Part shown: in pieces, positions 26,698 to 36,073 of the stretch
Layout: every line of letters starts with the position of its first letter
Numbering within the stretch: position 1 is the first letter of the stretch
Source of the DNA: a virus
Direction: 5' to 3' (one strand)
DNA: 36,073 nt
Virus record (IMG/VR): IMGVR_UViG_3300013101_000039
Location: 1-36,073 of that record
Notes under the pieces: generated by a model
What the model was told of the DNA's origin: nothing
What the model saw: only the letters and a program-made list of their open reading frames with translations
The model's database searches: none
Translations under genes and position numbers: made by a program

Positions 26698-26803
26698 CGA
26701 TACGACTCCCGGCGGGAACACTGTAACACATTTAAAATTAATCAATAAGCAGCGACGCTCGCTATGGGTAGGGGTAGTGTTGGTTCATATAAGATGGCTA
26801 ACT

Positions 26804-26838
26804 ACTGTAATTACAGTGAATTGCACTGCAATTACAGT
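26804..26838. promoter_or_regulatory. Tandem palindromic operators 21 bp apart
   Basis: ACTGTAATTACAGT (26804-26817) is a perfect 14-bp palindrome. ACTGCAATTACAGT (26825-26838) is the same site with one change. Their centres are 21 bp apart, two helical turns. Between and overlapping them lies a second perfect palindrome, AATTGCA-C-TGCAATT (26819-26833). An 11-bp direct repeat AATTACAGTGA (26809-26819, 26830-26840) underlies the array. They sit 54-88 bases before the ATG at 26892, so they probably control that gene and the nuclease after it. The binding protein is unknown. Confidence 0.7.
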
Positions 26839-26891
26839 GACTTTTGGTCGTTCTTATGAAACCAACTATACTTATATGCATAGGGGGTGTT

Positions 26892-27149
26892 ATGATGAGT
26901 AAAAAGAAGATCGCATATATTATATTTGTTATTTTTATGACCTTTCATGAAGTATCAGAGGTAATTAACGGCGGCCATAGCAGCGACACGTTCAGTATTT
27001 TCAACTTCACTGATAATACGGACTGCAATCCAGCTCAATGTGAGATCCCCGACTGCATGAAGGACGTGCCAGATTGCGATGAAGGTGTTAATATTGGGAA
27101 GGCGTTATCAGCGATTAATCTTATTAGTAAAGGATTCACGGATTATTAA
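26892..27149 (+). CDS. Small exported or membrane-anchored Cys protein
   Basis: An 85-aa protein. The ATG at 26892 (tandem ATGATG) is preferred because AGGGGG lies five bases upstream; an upstream TTG would place the operators' edge too close. Residues 4-18 have three Lys followed by a hydrophobic segment IAYIIFVIFM, either a signal peptide or a short membrane anchor. The remainder is acidic and has four Cys (45, 50, 55, 62) in a 20-residue stretch, suggesting disulfides in the periplasm. No family is recognised. A lysis accessory, superinfection-exclusion or other envelope protein is possible. It forms a unit with the VRR-NUC gene two bases downstream. Confidence 0.75.
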   Translation: MMSKKKIAYIIFVIFMTFHEVSEVINGGHSSDTFSIFNFTDNTDCNPAQCEIPDCMKDVPDCDEGVNIGKALSAINLISKGFTDY

Positions 27150-32382: not shown

Positions 32383-33201
32383 CTAGTCCTCGTATTGTGC
32401 GTAATGTGGTATTGATAAAATCTTAGGTTCGTATGAATCCCAAGCGTCTGCTTTTAGTGATTCTGCGTAATCACCCATTAACTTATTGAAAAGGTGTTCA
32501 CCGTACTCTAGCGCCTCATCATCTAATAGATAATAAGTACAAGCATAAGGCTCTACTTTTTCAACGCAGTAAAATATAAACTTCTGAAACTCAACGCCCA
32601 ACGACTCAACCGCCGCTTTAATCATTGCTGCTTGCAAGAAATATCCATATTGAAACGCTGAATTTTGAAACGGTCGATAGCTACCGTCTTTAACTGTCTT
32701 TAAGTCGGTTATAACGCCGCCAATCATAGCGTCAGGCCTTACTTTACATTGTAAGCCTGTTGGCTCATGAGTAAAATAAATTGATTTCTCAACGTCACTA
32801 CCTACAAATAACCCTTTAGCCATATCATCATTTAATACTAATTTGGCCATAGCTTGCGCGGCAGCCATATCGTCTGTCATAACGATTTCTCTGTGGCCAG
32901 CATAGTGCAGTGCATTTGCGTGTGCTTCCTTGCCTACCTTAGTAGCTCGACTAACCTTGTTCATCACAAAATACCTATCATCAATTTCACTAGGCTCTAA
33001 TACCAATGTATGTATTAGGTTGCCCAGCGCAAAGGCCGCCGATGGTTTGGGTGGGGTGTAATCAGGGTTTAGGTATCTATGCCAATAATGTTTAGGTGAT
33101 TGCTTATAAAGCCATAAAGCTGAGCGCGACACGCCCTGGCTGCCATGATACTCGTCATTAGTTATATCATGTAGCCCATTTTCAAATTGTGGTTTCAACA
33201 T
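32383..33201 (-). CDS. PD-(D/E)XK exonuclease, RecE/ExoVIII C-terminal type
   Basis: A 272-aa nuclease of the lambda-exonuclease-like fold, as in the nuclease domain of RecE. Visible active-site elements are GNLIHTLVLEP with H64, E138 in VEKS, CKVRPDAM with D157, the DLK at 166-168, and the GYFLQAAM helix with Q190. The N-terminus has the substrate/fold element SRSALWLYKQSPKHYWHRYL. It resects dsDNA 5'-3' to load RecT, for recombination-dependent replication. It is the first gene of the leftward operon, with GGAG before the ATG, downstream of a strong leftward promoter (33252-33280). Confidence 0.92.
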   Translation of the reverse strand: MLKPQFENGLHDITNDEYHGSQGVSRSALWLYKQSPKHYWHRYLNPDYTPPKPSAAFALGNLIHTLVLEPSEIDDRYFVMNKVSRATKVGKEAHANALHYAGHREIVMTDDMAAAQAMAKLVLNDDMAKGLFVGSDVEKSIYFTHEPTGLQCKVRPDAMIGGVITDLKTVKDGSYRPFQNSAFQYGYFLQAAMIKAAVESLGVEFQKFIFYCVEKVEPYACTYYLLDDEALEYGEHLFNKLMGDYAESLKADAWDSYEPKILSIPHYAQYED

Positions 33202-33246
33202 CTTATATCTCCTATATGCTTATATGTAATTTATTGTTACCAACGC

Positions 33247-33275
33247 TTGTAATTCTATTCAATTTTGGCTAAGAT
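33247..33275 (+). promoter_or_regulatory. Rightward early promoter (PR-like)
   Basis: TTGTAA (33247-33252), a 17-bp spacer and TAAGAT (33270-33275) give a moderate promoter for the Cro-like gene with a start near 33282. It occupies nearly the same bases as the leftward promoter, so the two polymerases cannot bind together. Confidence 0.6.
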
Positions 33276-33280
33276 GTCAA
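33252..33280 (-). promoter_or_regulatory. Leftward early promoter (PL-like)
   Basis: On the minus strand TTGACA (33280-33275), a 17-bp spacer and TAGAAT (33257-33252) form a near-consensus promoter with expected start near 33245, directing the exonuclease/RecT/SSB/helicase operon. The -35 lies within the operator arm GTCAAT, so a bound repressor would block it. Confidence 0.82.
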
Positions 33281-33298
33281 TAAGAATTGACGTTAACG
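33276..33298. promoter_or_regulatory. Operator of the early promoters
   Basis: GTCAAT-AAGA-ATTGAC (33276-33291) is a perfect 6-bp inverted repeat, followed by CGTTAACG (33291-33298), itself a palindrome. The 11-mer TTGACGTTAAC (33287-33297) recurs at 34182-34192. It overlaps the -35 of the leftward promoter and the start of the rightward transcript. The adjacent Cro-like protein is the obvious candidate binder. Confidence 0.65.
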
Positions 33299-33311
33299 AG
33301 GAAATAAACAG

Positions 33312-33557
33312 ATGACAATTACACAAGTTATAAAGTACTACGGCAGTGCGTACAAGGCTGCTATTGCCTTAGGCGTGACTAGACAGGTGCTAAGCTCTTG
33401 GAAGAAAAAAGAAAATGTGCCATTATTGCAACAGTACAGATATGAAAGACTTACTGCAGGTAAGTTGACCGTAAGAGATGAAATGCTTAAGATACAACTT
33501 AATAAACAAAAGAATAGGGAAATTCAAAATGAGCGAACAGGCAGCGGCACCGACTAA
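33312..33557 (+). CDS. Cro-like repressor
   Basis: An 81-aa protein with a helix-turn-helix at residues 11-30 (GSAYKAAIALGVTRQVLSSW) and the following YRYERLTAGKL, the arrangement of P22/lambda-type Cro proteins (first gene of the rightward early operon, about 60-80 aa). It would bind the operator before its own gene and switch off both early promoters. The C-terminal 25 residues are a charged extension. The gene follows its promoter by about 30 bases, with ACGAGGAAA as ribosome-binding site. A CI-type partner is not found. Confidence 0.88.
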   Translation: MTITQVIKYYGSAYKAAIALGVTRQVLSSWKKKENVPLLQQYRYERLTAGKLTVRDEMLKIQLNKQKNREIQNERTGSGTD

Positions 33558-33828
33558 AAGTGAAGAATTAAAAGTTAACTCTGATGTGTTGGGATTTAAA
33601 GATTTTTTAACACTAGAGCTTAGCAACTGGGTTAAAATTCTAGAAGACACTAAGACCAAGGTTGCATCGGCACCTGACGATCTATATTCCCCGATACTAC
33701 AAAACGCGCATAGTCTGATTAGAGCATGCGACAGAGAGGTAGTATATATGCACAAGCTAGAAGAGTTAGCTCTTGCTCAGCACGAAGAGGCTTTAAAAGA
33801 TGCGGAGCCATTAGTCGCTAAAGCATAG
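33529..33828 (+). CDS. Unknown early protein
   Basis: A 99-aa protein. The ATG at 33529 is favoured by AGGGA eight bases upstream and gives a 29-base overlap with the Cro-like gene; an earlier ATG at 33478 would overlap it by 80 bases and lacks a ribosome-binding site. The sequence begins MSEQAAAPTKSEELKVNSDV and is helical throughout, with no HTH or membrane segment. No family is recognised; position after cro suggests an early regulatory or host-takeover role. Confidence 0.8.
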   Translation: MSEQAAAPTKSEELKVNSDVLGFKDFLTLELSNWVKILEDTKTKVASAPDDLYSPILQNAHSLIRACDREVVYMHKLEELALAQHEEALKDAEPLVAKA

Positions 33829-33837
33829 GCTGTTTAA

Positions 33838-34143
33838 ATGAATGTTTATGCAGATCTAAAAAAGCAGCTTAAGCAAGTTTGTATAAGACAGGACACTTTA
33901 GCCTTAGAGGCGCGCCAGCTTGATTATGAGGCGCTAAAAGGTAAACGTAATACTGTCTTTGTACATTTAAGTCACGCCCTAGATATGGCTTTTCAGGATA
34001 TGTACGGTGCTACTAACCCCGAGGTTCAATTTATACTCAAAGAGTTTTTTAGGGATTTTAATGATTCATTCATTTTAGTTGACGACTTACTAAAGGAGCA
34101 TAGAAAAGATATGAACTGTTGCAAATCAAAAGAGCTGCGTTAG
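33838..34143 (+). CDS. Unknown early protein
   Basis: A 101-aa helical protein with a charged C-terminus and a CC pair near the end (NCCKSKELR). The central part has an amphipathic helix pattern (VFVHLSHALDMAFQDMYGAT). It lacks a recognisable domain. It lies in the rightward operon between an unknown and a winged-helix gene, with no strong ribosome-binding site, so translation may be coupled to the preceding gene nine bases upstream. Confidence 0.8.
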   Translation: MNVYADLKKQLKQVCIRQDTLALEARQLDYEALKGKRNTVFVHLSHALDMAFQDMYGATNPEVQFILKEFFRDFNDSFILVDDLLKEHRKDMNCCKSKELR

Positions 34144-34171
34144 GCGCGCTAGACTTATACCAAATATCATG

Positions 34172-34194
34172 TAAGATGTTGTTGACGTTAACAA
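34172..34194. promoter_or_regulatory. Second operator with the same 11-mer
   Basis: TAAGATGT (34172-34179) is followed by TTGACGTTAAC (34182-34192), both also found at the early operator, although their spacing differs (10 instead of 17 bases). TTGTTGACGTTAACAA (34179-34194) is a 16-bp palindrome with one mismatched pair. TAAGAT may be a -10 with a TAGACT-like -35 at 34150-34155. The site directly precedes the GTG-started winged-helix gene. Confidence 0.55.
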
Positions 34195-34210
34195 TATAAG
34201 GAGTATGTAA

Positions 34211-34486
34211 GTGTCAACAATAAAAGAAAAAGAGGTTATCACAATCAACCGCGATGCTTTAATGGATAGTGATTTTAACCTACTAGACTTAAGAGTATAC
34301 CTACTTACAAAGCTAGAATCTGAAAAAGCTAATGCAAACGGCGGGGAATTTGCACCTGAGAATATATCATTTGCGACAGAAATAGGAATTCACCCTAGAA
34401 CATTACAAAAATCTTTTGAACGGCTAGAAAAGCGTGGCTATATATTGCGCGAAATGAAAGACGGTAAAAGGTACGTTTATTTATAA
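34211..34486 (+). CDS. Winged-helix DNA-binding protein
   Basis: A 91-aa protein starting at GTG (34211), with AAGGAG seven bases before it; an ATG at 34205 is followed directly by a stop. The helix-turn-helix FATEIGIHPRTLQKSFERLE (residues about 55-74) is followed by the beta-wing KRGYILREMKDGKRYVYL, typical of small winged-helix regulators and of phage replication-associated proteins. It is preceded by its own operator-like site and followed by a weak terminator. In gene order it holds the place that cII has in lambda, between cro and O. Confidence 0.82.
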   Translation: MSTIKEKEVITINRDALMDSDFNLLDLRVYLLTKLESEKANANGGEFAPENISFATEIGIHPRTLQKSFERLEKRGYILREMKDGKRYVYL

Positions 34487-34506
34487 CGGGACTGGATCTT
34501 AAAATG

Positions 34507-34536
34507 AACTTAGGTAATAATAACTCTAAGTTTTTT
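34507..34536 (+). terminator. Weak terminator after the winged-helix gene
   Basis: AACTTAG (34507-34513) and CTAAGTT (34526-34532) form a 7-bp AT-rich stem, followed by a run of T (to 34536). The low stem stability suggests partial termination, leaving the downstream replication genes to a separate promoter as well as read-through. Confidence 0.5.
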
Positions 34537-34540
34537 GGAC

Positions 34541-34567
34541 AATAAAAAGCCGGTCATGAAACCGGCT
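34541..34567 (-). terminator. Leftward rho-independent terminator
   Basis: On the minus strand AGCCGGT (34567-34561), loop TTCATG and ACCGGCT (34554-34548) form a 7-bp stem followed by TTTTATT. On the plus strand no T run follows the stem, so it acts leftward. No leftward protein gene lies upstream of it, which implies a short non-coding transcript. Confidence 0.75.
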
Positions 34568-34574
34568 AATTAAA

Positions 34575-34602
34575 TTCAAAGACCACAAACACATGGTATT
34601 CT
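34575..34602 (+). promoter_or_regulatory. Rightward promoter for replication genes
   Basis: TTCAAA (34575-34580), a 16-bp spacer and TGG-TATTCT (extended -10, 34594-34602) predict a start near 34609. The -10 and its flank are an exact inverted copy of the leftward promoter's -10. It would serve the leader ORF and replication proteins. The -35 is only a partial match. Confidence 0.45.
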
Positions 34603-34630
34603 CTTCGACTTGGCAGTTGAGAGAATACCA
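34594..34630. repeat. 11-bp perfect inverted repeat carrying two -10 boxes
   Basis: TGGTATTCTCT (34594-34604) and AGAGAATACCA (34620-34630) are exact reverse complements with a 15-base centre. Each arm contains an extended -10 element for one strand. The repeat could be a regulator-binding site, an RNA hairpin in read-through transcripts, or both. Confidence 0.75.
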
Positions 34631-34693
34631 ACACTAACAAACCATGTCAACCGCCAAGACGGTTAAAACTGCCACAAACAAGGGGGTTTTAAC
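34611..34693 (+). promoter_or_regulatory. Structured leader of the replication operon
   Basis: Four pairings can form in the plus-strand RNA: TGGCAGTT (34611-34618) with AACTGCCA (34667-34674); CTTGGC (34609-34614) with GCCAAG (34653-34658); AACCG (34649-34653) with CGGTT (34660-34664); and GTTAAAAC (34662-34669) with GTTTTAAC (34686-34693). Several share bases and exclude each other. The last one covers the edge of the AGGGGG ribosome-binding site of the leader ORF, the first would free it. This is an inferred switch. Confidence 0.45.
34622..34650 (-). promoter_or_regulatory. Strong leftward promoter of the small RNA
   Basis: On the minus strand a perfect TTGACA (34650-34645), a 17-bp spacer and TATTCT (34627-34622) with TGG before it (extended -10) are seen. 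This and the leftward early promoter are the only perfect TTGACA boxes found with 17-bp spacing in the gene-free stretches read. Start expected near 34615. Confidence 0.7.
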
Positions 34694-34694
34694 T

Positions 34695-34814
34695 ATGTCA
34701 TTGATACCAAAGAAAAACAACTTTACTATTCACACTAAGATAATCTTTGATTTATACTTAATCAACGCGGCCGATTCGGCTATGCCACTAAAAAACACAT
34801 GGAGTGTGAATTAA
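34695..34814 (+). CDS. 39-aa leader ORF before the replication initiator
   Basis: An ATG-TAA frame with AGGGGG (34681-34686) eight bases before the ATG, giving a 39-aa product that begins MSLIPKKNNFTIHTKIIFDL. Its TAA overlaps the initiator ATG as TAATG, so translating it would deliver ribosomes directly to the initiator. It has no recognisable domain. A leader-peptide role coupling initiator translation, as known for plasmid replication genes with leader peptides, fits the setting. It might also be a simple small protein. Confidence 0.55.
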   Translation: MSLIPKKNNFTIHTKIIFDLYLINAADSAMPLKNTWSVN

Positions 34815-35233
34815 TGTCCTATTTTACGATACCAAGTTTTGTTGTAGACAATAAAGTACTATCGGTTGCTGAAAAGTATTTATATGGTTATTTCCATACA
34901 CATTACTTTAACGGCAATACTATTTTTGTTAGTAATGCTAACTTAGCTGGGATGCTTAACTGCGAGGTACGACAGATTCAAAATATATTAAATAGTTTAG
35001 AGACTAAGAAATATATAACTAGGGATGAAGAGAATATAAAGGGCAAGAATAGGCGCGTGATAACACCACTTGTAACCGCGAAAGGTAAGGTTATAAACGA
35101 AGAAAAAGATATCCACAACCACCATGCAATAAATTGCATACAGAAAGAAAAGAAGAAAGAAAAGAAGAAAGAAAAGAACGTAACGTACGTAGCGGTCTTT
35201 CTACGAAAGAAGATAAAACAAAAGAAGCAATGA
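34814..35233 (+). CDS. Replication initiator, winged-helix N-terminal part
   Basis: A 139-aa protein. The ATG at 34814 overlaps the leader stop and has GGAG nine bases upstream; an ATG at 34799 is the alternative. Residues 1-90 are a winged-helix domain of the phage/plasmid replication type: FTIPSFVVDNKVLSVAEKYL, SNANLAGMLNCEVRQIQNIL (HTH), then a wing NRRVITPLV. From about residue 105 the sequence is low-complexity Lys/Glu. Phage O-like initiators have this build, with the origin inside the coding region. The frame ends in a TGA overlapping the next ATG (ATGA). A -1 shift in the repeat would instead join it to the next ORF. Confidence 0.82.
   Translation: MSYFTIPSFVVDNKVLSVAEKYLYGYFHTHYFNGNTIFVSNANLAGMLNCEVRQIQNILNSLETKKYITRDEENIKGKNRRVITPLVTAKGKVINEEKDIHNHHAINCIQKEKKKEKKKEKNVTYVAVFLRKKIKQKKQ
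35124..35139. repeat. Palindrome ATGCAAT-AA-ATTGCAT inside the initiator gene
   Basis: A perfect 7-bp inverted repeat with a 2-base centre lies three bases before the homopurine tandem repeat. It may be a binding site for the initiator or part of the origin. Confidence 0.7.
35142..35178 (+). repeat. 12-bp homopurine tandem repeat (about 3 copies), possible origin
   Basis: AAAGAAAAGAAG is repeated at 35144-35155 and 35156-35167 and, in 11 bases, at 35168-35178; the plus strand has only A and G for 37 bases. Iterons and an AT-rich, strand-asymmetric tract inside the initiator gene are the arrangement of the lambda origin within gene O. It could serve as iterons or as the unwinding element. It encodes the KEKKKEKKKEK linker. 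Confidence 0.6.
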
Positions 35234-35751
35234 TTTACCTTAAGTCAAAACTTAAAGATCCTCTTATCAGCAGAGGCCAGGTAGAACAGATATTAAAAGC
35301 ACATACACCTGACGCCAAACTAAGTTGGTCAGTTGATAATTATTTATATTACTTAAGTACAGACGCAGCTAAGGGTATTAAAAAACCATTCCCTGTATTT
35401 ATGTCTCACATAAAAGATGTGGGCTACTTTGAAGATTATAAACAATACATCAAGTCTAAGGACGAGAGTGATGATTCTGGCGATCTAGGCACGCCTGAAG
35501 GACTTTATGAAGCACTAATGGCTAATGACTTGGATGAGGCTAAAAGAATCGCACATAAGGCCTCAAACAAGAACACATACACATTGGATGAAGCGCAGAA
35601 AATATGGTTCGAGTCATGGTTAGAAAAGGTAGCTACCCAATCAGAAAAAGATAGATTCCACGGTAAGCCACAAAGAAAGATATTTGAATATTACATAGCT
35701 AATCAGTGGATTGATGACTTTGAATTTGCTAAAAGCAAGATAGTAGCTTAA
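35230..35751 (+). CDS. Replication protein, C-terminal part or helicase-loader-like
   Basis: A 173-aa protein from the ATG that overlaps the previous TGA (ATGA). It is helical and charged, with YLKSKLKDPLISRGQVEQIL near the start, a middle WSVDNYLYYLST and a C-terminal QRKIFEYYIANQWIDDFEFA. In lambda the product of the gene after O is a helicase loader (P); here neither AAA+ motifs nor a clear DnaC-like Walker A is present. The same frame stays open back to a TTG at 35134 through the tandem repeat, so it could also be expressed as the C-terminal half of the initiator by a -1 frameshift. Confidence 0.75.
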   Translation: MIYLKSKLKDPLISRGQVEQILKAHTPDAKLSWSVDNYLYYLSTDAAKGIKKPFPVFMSHIKDVGYFEDYKQYIKSKDESDDSGDLGTPEGLYEALMANDLDEAKRIAHKASNKNTYTLDEAQKIWFESWLEKVATQSEKDRFHGKPQRKIFEYYIANQWIDDFEFAKSKIVA

Positions 35752-35777
35752 CTATTATATAACTAACAAGGATTGTT

Positions 35778-36065
35778 ATGGGTAAAGATGATCGTATATC
35801 GCAAAACGATAAGAGTAGGGCGGATAGGTATCATGACGAATTTGCTGAATGGATGTTGCTGTTTTATACAGCCGACGACGCTAATAGAGAGGTACGCCTT
35901 AAGTTTATTGAAGATAACAAAGAGGAGTTTCCAAAACTAGAACACCCCCACATGAGTTTTAGGGTAACCTCTAGGCTATACTTTGATAAATACATATACT
36001 CTTTAAGAGAAGAGACTTATAATCGTGAATCGCTGCCCAAGCACAACCCTGGCGGGTGGTTATAA
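35778..36065 (+). CDS. Unknown protein, end of rightward operon
   Basis: A 95-aa acidic, helical protein with AAGGATT seven bases before the ATG. It has segments SRADRYHDEFAEWMLLFYTA and SFRVTSRLYFDKYIYSLREE, with no recognisable catalytic motif or membrane segment. It ends two bases before an ATG (36068) that begins a gene at the right edge. Role unknown; its place just before the packaging genes in the inferred circular order would fit a late regulator or nothing of the kind. Confidence 0.8.
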   Translation: MGKDDRISQNDKSRADRYHDEFAEWMLLFYTADDANREVRLKFIEDNKEEFPKLEHPHMSFRVTSRLYFDKYIYSLREETYNRESLPKHNPGGWL

Positions 36066-36067
36066 TA

Positions 36068-36073
36068 ATGAGG
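36068..36073 (+). CDS. Start of a gene cut by the right edge
   Basis: ATGAGG follows the previous stop by two bases, with GGCGGGTGG about 10-18 bases upstream as a possible ribosome-binding site. Only two codons are visible. In a circularly permuted P22-like genome the next gene would be the small terminase, whose start is missing at the left edge. Confidence 0.35.

Follow-up and report, generated by a model that had tools for sequence, protein, structure and literature searches.

The window analysed here is the whole of an IMG/VR virus contig of 36,073 bases, which is linear and possibly incomplete. It contains matches to the P22-type portal, coat, scaffold and tail-hub proteins, a leftward helicase/SSB/RecT/exonuclease VIII gene set and, at the head of a rightward early operon, a P22_Cro-like regulator. 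The description of this phage as P22-like in an earlier note on the DNA hence holds for the structural genes and for the Cro-like protein (33312-33557). Downstream in the early operon, a leftward promoter and a leftward terminator lie between a gene in the cII position and the replication initiator. The features of the region are as follows (+, rightward; -, leftward).

33312-33557, +: P22_Cro-like regulator opening the rightward early operon, by profile match
34211-34486, +: winged-helix protein of 91 aa in the cII position, resembling the N-termini of replication initiators, not CII
34540-34567, -: intrinsic terminator, 8-bp stem (5 GC) and T-run
about 34543-34617, -: predicted OOP-like RNA of about 75 nt without an ORF, placed by the promoter and terminator signals
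34594-34630, +: inverted repeat TGGTATTCTCT-15-AGAGAATACCA, 11 bp and perfect, spanning the leftward -10; predicted hairpin in the mRNA
34622-34650, -: sigma70-type, pO-like promoter, TTGACA-17-TATTCT with extended -10
34661-34694, +: hairpin in which the leader ORF's GGGGG Shine-Dalgarno is paired, in the predicted rightward mRNA fold
34667-34674, +: AACUGCCA, 8-nt complement of the CUUGGCA hairpin tip (P about 0.006 by shuffling)
34695-34814, +: leader ORF of 39 aa with a GGGGG Shine-Dalgarno, its stop overlapping the initiator start (TAATG), in the place of P22 orf48
34814-35233, +: replication initiator of 139 aa, winged helix (HTH_36; PHROG 270/186/678)
35230-35751, +: next ORF of the replication operon, with an ATGA overlap with the initiator stop

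The protein encoded by 34211-34486 matches replication-initiator profiles (PHROG 8102 at 2.3e-6 and PHROG 428 at 2.1e-5), while no match to Phage_CII was found anywhere in the record. Integrase, HTH_3 and S24 repressor families were also not found in this linear and perhaps incomplete contig. The proposal that the winged-helix gene is a functional cII was therefore not borne out. The matches of the initiator itself are confined to HTH_36 and phage O/DnaD-like families, and its C-terminal coding end is a run of 12-nt AAAGAAAAGAAG repeats (35142-35178). There is no need to invoke a frameshift in the initiator (34814-35233 / 35134-35751), because the ATGA stop/start overlap at 35230 accounts more simply for the change of frame.

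Farther upstream, cro and the leftward exonuclease/RecT operon point away from each other across only about 110 bp (33201-33312), with no repressor gene between them, unlike in P22. The sequence TTGACGTTAAC, part of a near-palindrome, is found at 33286-33297 before cro and is repeated at 34181-34192 before the winged-helix gene; these sites are candidate Cro operators. A long inverted repeat, strongly structured on both strands, is located 3′ of the late genes (26750-26960).

The leftward unit and the leader of the initiator mRNA

On the minus strand, the -35 hexamer TTGACA (34650-34645) is separated by a 17-nt spacer from the -10 hexamer TATTCT (34627-34622), which is extended by a TG at 34630-34629 (TGgTATTCT), and the promoter scores 10/12 matches. 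The terminator stem-loop follows 73 nt further along this strand and is composed of the stem AGCCGGTTTCATGACCGGCT (34567-34548) and then TTTTATTGTC, which by sequence acts leftward only. Such a promoter and terminator within 150 nt of each other are found only once in the whole record, both strands included. A genome shuffled at order 2 yields 0.86 loose promoter-terminator pairs, and pairs as strong as the unit at 34541-34650 were found in 0 of 800 order-2 shuffled strands. The promoter and the leftward-only terminator, noted earlier as bracketing about 75 nt with no protein gene, are thus both present, and the feature is confirmed as real.

From the promoter spacing, the 5′ end of the predicted RNA would be A34617 or a position at most 3 nt away. 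Its predicted folding is 3.6 SD above shuffles, with the terminator supplying most of the excess. In agreement with the earlier note, the RNA would end about 55 bases before the winged-helix gene (the gap to 34486 is 55 nt), and from its position its predicted antisense overlap is limited to the intergenic leader in front of the initiator. The unit had also been placed directly upstream of the initiator; it is upstream, the promoter lying about 170-190 nt 5′ of the initiator start, but the 39-aa ORF (34695-34814) intervenes before the ATG at 34814. A blastn search of 33500-36073 against 50,697 phage records gave no DNA match, and Rfam gave nothing at gathering scores for the window, an evalue search returning chance-level matches only.

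The leader itself is unusually structured. Folded as the rightward mRNA, 34487-34840 exceeds shuffles in stability by 6.5 SD, and among 150-nt segments taken every 100 nt on both strands of the whole window, the plus strand of 34501-34650 ranks 1 of 720 (z -6.9). The folding z at the gene start at 34695 is likewise low, -5.5, where the median over 35 gene starts is -0.3. In the predicted fold, the inverted repeat at 34594-34630 forms a long, strong hairpin with the tip CUUGGCA, and the initiator's own Shine-Dalgarno is, like that of the leader ORF, mostly paired. The complement of the tip, AACUGCCA, is located just 5′ of the leader ORF Shine-Dalgarno and is possibly a pseudoknot strand, or else part of a repeated protein site. 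This leader structure strengthens the better part of the earlier reading, namely its preference for the leader or the read-through mRNA, over the coding end, as the probable target. In a free-energy model in which the stretch covered by the antisense RNA was blocked, the pairing of the leader ORF Shine-Dalgarno was unchanged; direct translational control by the RNA is hence hypothetical.

Leftward signals in related phages

No close relatives emerged from IMG/VR, whether searched with proteins (initiator, winged-helix protein, exonuclease and second ORF) or with the exact sequence of the inverted repeat, and one initiator family scanned against genomes gave no matches. A terminase scan yielded 80 loci, and P22_Cro was located in 26 of the 40 longer contigs, whose downstream regions were compared. 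No host is claimed, because most of the terminase relatives found in genome assemblies come from metagenome bins with mixed labels. Of 17 initiator regions, 9 have promoter-terminator pairs upstream of the initiator on the left strand and 1 on the right strand. Two further scans led to a set of 97 non-redundant initiator regions, related to varying degrees and giving counts which are not fully independent, in which such pairs number 9 on the left strand against 2 on the right (p 0.07 alone) and hairpins with a GGA loop 29 against 5 (sign test, about 4e-5).

Of these 97 regions, 33 have a leftward TATAAT at the start codon of the initiator, preceded by TG in 21. The corresponding ATTATA just before a start was found for 12 of 766 ORFs, 8 of the 12 being initiators by inspection, and its position in the relatives is that of lambda pO. 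In several loci (L111, L112, L119, L121, L122, L124, L134 and others), the start codon of the initiator (ATTATAnnATG) coincides exactly with a leftward extended -10, TGnTATAAT. Complete units, running 43-69 nt from the initiator start to a terminator, are found in L111, L119, L120 and L125, while L116, L118, L113 and L128 have promoter-terminator units elsewhere in the upstream region; in L118 (the same locus as L027), iteron-like repeats lie between promoter and terminator. Leftward signals before the initiator are thus a group feature across many unrelated sequences. The self-terminating form is less common and in the minority, because most relatives show the leftward promoter signal and lack a near terminator.

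A second conserved leftward unit is found farther upstream in L119, L113, L111 (L084 2582, minus strand), L114 (L087 145, plus strand) and L120. It consists of TAnAAT, then (C)TCACCAC-loop-GGTG(C/T)AGTT and later GGCTTACGCCA, and ends in a long terminator hairpin, the stem of which differs between phages.

In addition, a separate leftward RNA family, here called R1, is seen in the relatives as a conserved stretch of about 140 nt upstream of initiators, in phages with three initiator types. Its members include the following, together with L138, L143, L147 and others.

L137, 1305-1442, -: R1 family member
L127, 3740-3879, -: R1 family member
L071, 1203-1340, -: R1 family member

R1 contains a hairpin with a GCCAA loop and a hairpin with a TTGGC loop, which are able to pair with each other in 12 of 12 sequences (GC, AU and GU types). 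A third hairpin, GGCAGG(A/G)(A/T)GCC, seen as GGCAGGAAGCC, has a loop resembling the CsrB repeat, whose loop is CAGGA(U/A/C)G (PMC7652899). By this analogy, R1 is possibly a phage-made CsrA-binding RNA. The GU count for the RNA strand, 4 against 2, is weak. A covariance model of R1 matched 5′ of initiators in several more loci and found nothing in the window, lambda or P22, and the family has no Rfam entry; a loose motif search for one of the relatives' RNAs was too permissive to serve as sole evidence. CsrA binding by the RNA of the window itself was rejected, as there is no GGA on the minus strand of 34487-34700.

A possible role in replication control

With moderate confidence, we read the window's unit as an OOP-type device which damps and times the replication operon in cis, through an RNA antisense to the leader combined with polymerase collision. 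The leftward RNA would pair with the complementary leader of the initiator mRNA, after which RNase III would cut the message or the leader ORF and the overlapping initiator would no longer be translated. Meanwhile, polymerases from the leftward promoter would collide with rightward polymerases entering the replication genes. As the number of template copies goes up, so would the leftward RNA, hence a negative feedback. What the relatives conserve is a leftward promoter opposed to the replication operon, and the window phage, in which no lysogeny genes are visible, combines it with a good terminator. The sequences themselves show the promoter, the terminator, the layout, the predicted leader fold, the lack of CII, integrase and repressor families in the contig and the excess of leftward signals in relatives; that the RNA is transcribed and pairs, that translation of the two ORFs is coupled and that replication is affected is what we infer. 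Restraint of the operon in cis is suggested because, in lambda, both pO (PMC3985674) and oop together with ori (PMC3349717) affect replication.

The most probable of the alternatives, although still unlikely, is that promoter activity alone matters, opposing polymerases interfering and so setting the transcription that reaches the origin, with the RNA as a by-product. This would be nearest to the lambda result, where an inactive pO increases rightward transcription past pO and weakens replication while stabilizing the oop RNA changes little (PMC3985674), and it suits the relatives, which commonly have the promoter without a near terminator. However, transcription of intact oop plus ori silences lambda replication independently of CI, and this silencing required the intact oop sequence, beyond mere initiation at pO (PMC3349717); in the window, moreover, the terminator is good and the target unusually structured. 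Somewhat less likely is a copy-number switch of the plasmid type in the place of oop, a CopA/Inc-RNA-like translational control within a phage replication operon. In such a switch, the UUGGC tip would pair with AACUGCCA, freeing the start signal of the leader ORF, and the 5′ end of the leftward RNA would cover the tip and block the pairing, turning off the leader ORF and the coupled initiator.

A classic OOP role, in which the RNA would trigger cleavage of a joint mRNA and so reduce expression of the gene at 34211-34486, as OOP does with cII, appears improbable. The gene does occupy the cII position, and an overlap with the coding end would not be strictly needed, since both reported RNase III sites in lambda are outside cII (PMC5869508). 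Against this, its product is initiator-like and not a CII, no lysogeny genes were found in the record and the RNA stops short of the gene. Least probable of all is a DNA site, origin or operator, at which the inverted repeat 34594-34630 and CTTGGC(A/G)GTTGA would bind the initiator or the winged-helix protein, the promoter being incidental or repressed. The perfect 11-bp repeat does overlap the -10, CTTGGC(A/G)GTTGA occurs on both strands and the iteron-like repeats of L118 are consistent with such a site, but it leaves unexplained both the leftward terminator and the left-strand bias of the relatives' hairpins and promoter signals.

In textbooks, OOP is the antisense RNA of cII. Work on lambda has nevertheless repeatedly hinted at a second role of OOP, in replication. 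That the device is retained in a phage without visible cII, repressor or integrase suggests that it can serve the control of replication and not just the choice between lysis and lysogeny, and that replication may be the wider of its roles; the leftward promoters and structured RNAs found at the same place in relatives of unrelated sequence point the same way. The window phage and its relatives thus offer natural systems in which OOP could be tested without a lysogeny circuit.

Comparison with lambda, P22 and plasmid antisense RNAs

The lambda pO-oop-tO unit, with its OOP RNA of 77 nt, and the unit of the window are both leftward, short and self-terminating, face pR and lie between the gene in the cII position and the replication initiator. 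As in OOP units, a leftward sigma70 promoter opposes pR before the initiator operon, and the predicted RNA, 75 nt from the DNA signals alone, falls within 60-80 nt and ends at an intrinsic terminator. Unlike in lambda, there is no cII and no overlap with the upstream gene, where OOP RNAs overlap the 3′ end of cII (c1), and the searches against phage records and Rfam revealed no similarity to lambdoid DNA. In addition, the lambda promoter is located at the first codon of the initiator, whereas that of the window precedes it by the leader ORF. P22 oop is an RNA of 63 nt detected by RNA sequencing (PMC13397905). P22 and the window share the order of oop terminator, oop promoter and short ORF overlapping the initiator start (orf48 and gene 18 in P22); however, the P22 promoter is on the orf48 start codon and its RNA is antisense to c1, the window differing in both respects, and the sequences are unrelated. 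The view that this is the lambda OOP device in a different sequence therefore stands for the leftward self-terminating unit, its position and its P22-like order, and fails for the cII role: the unit would be OOP-like in its working, yet is outside the lambda/P22 OOP family by sequence and target.

In I-complex plasmids, the leader ORF RepY is coupled to the RepZ initiator. The Inc RNA/RNAI of these plasmids (RepY-RepZ) and CopA of R1 are directed against the leader of an initiator's mRNA, as the predicted RNA of the window would be. Plasmid counter-transcript systems and the window also share a short leader ORF overlapping the initiator (in the window, the 39-aa ORF with TAATG) and, in the window by prediction, a hidden Shine-Dalgarno. 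The plasmid leaders have a target hairpin with a UUGGC tip and a complementary strand downstream, to which the predicted hairpin of the window and its complement may correspond. For I-complex leaders, works cited in PMC10724649 and PMC7646527 describe the loop motif 5′-rUUGGCG-3′ and a pseudoknot switch. The initiator of the window is not of the plasmid RepA/RepZ family, and the window has no Rfam match. Its hairpin tip UUGGCA has 5 of the 6 letters of UUGGCG, and the 8-nt complement (P about 0.006) is a candidate pseudoknot partner near the leader start. The likeness to the I-complex is a lead and, if true, a CopA/Inc-RNA-like switch would sit inside a phage replication operon.
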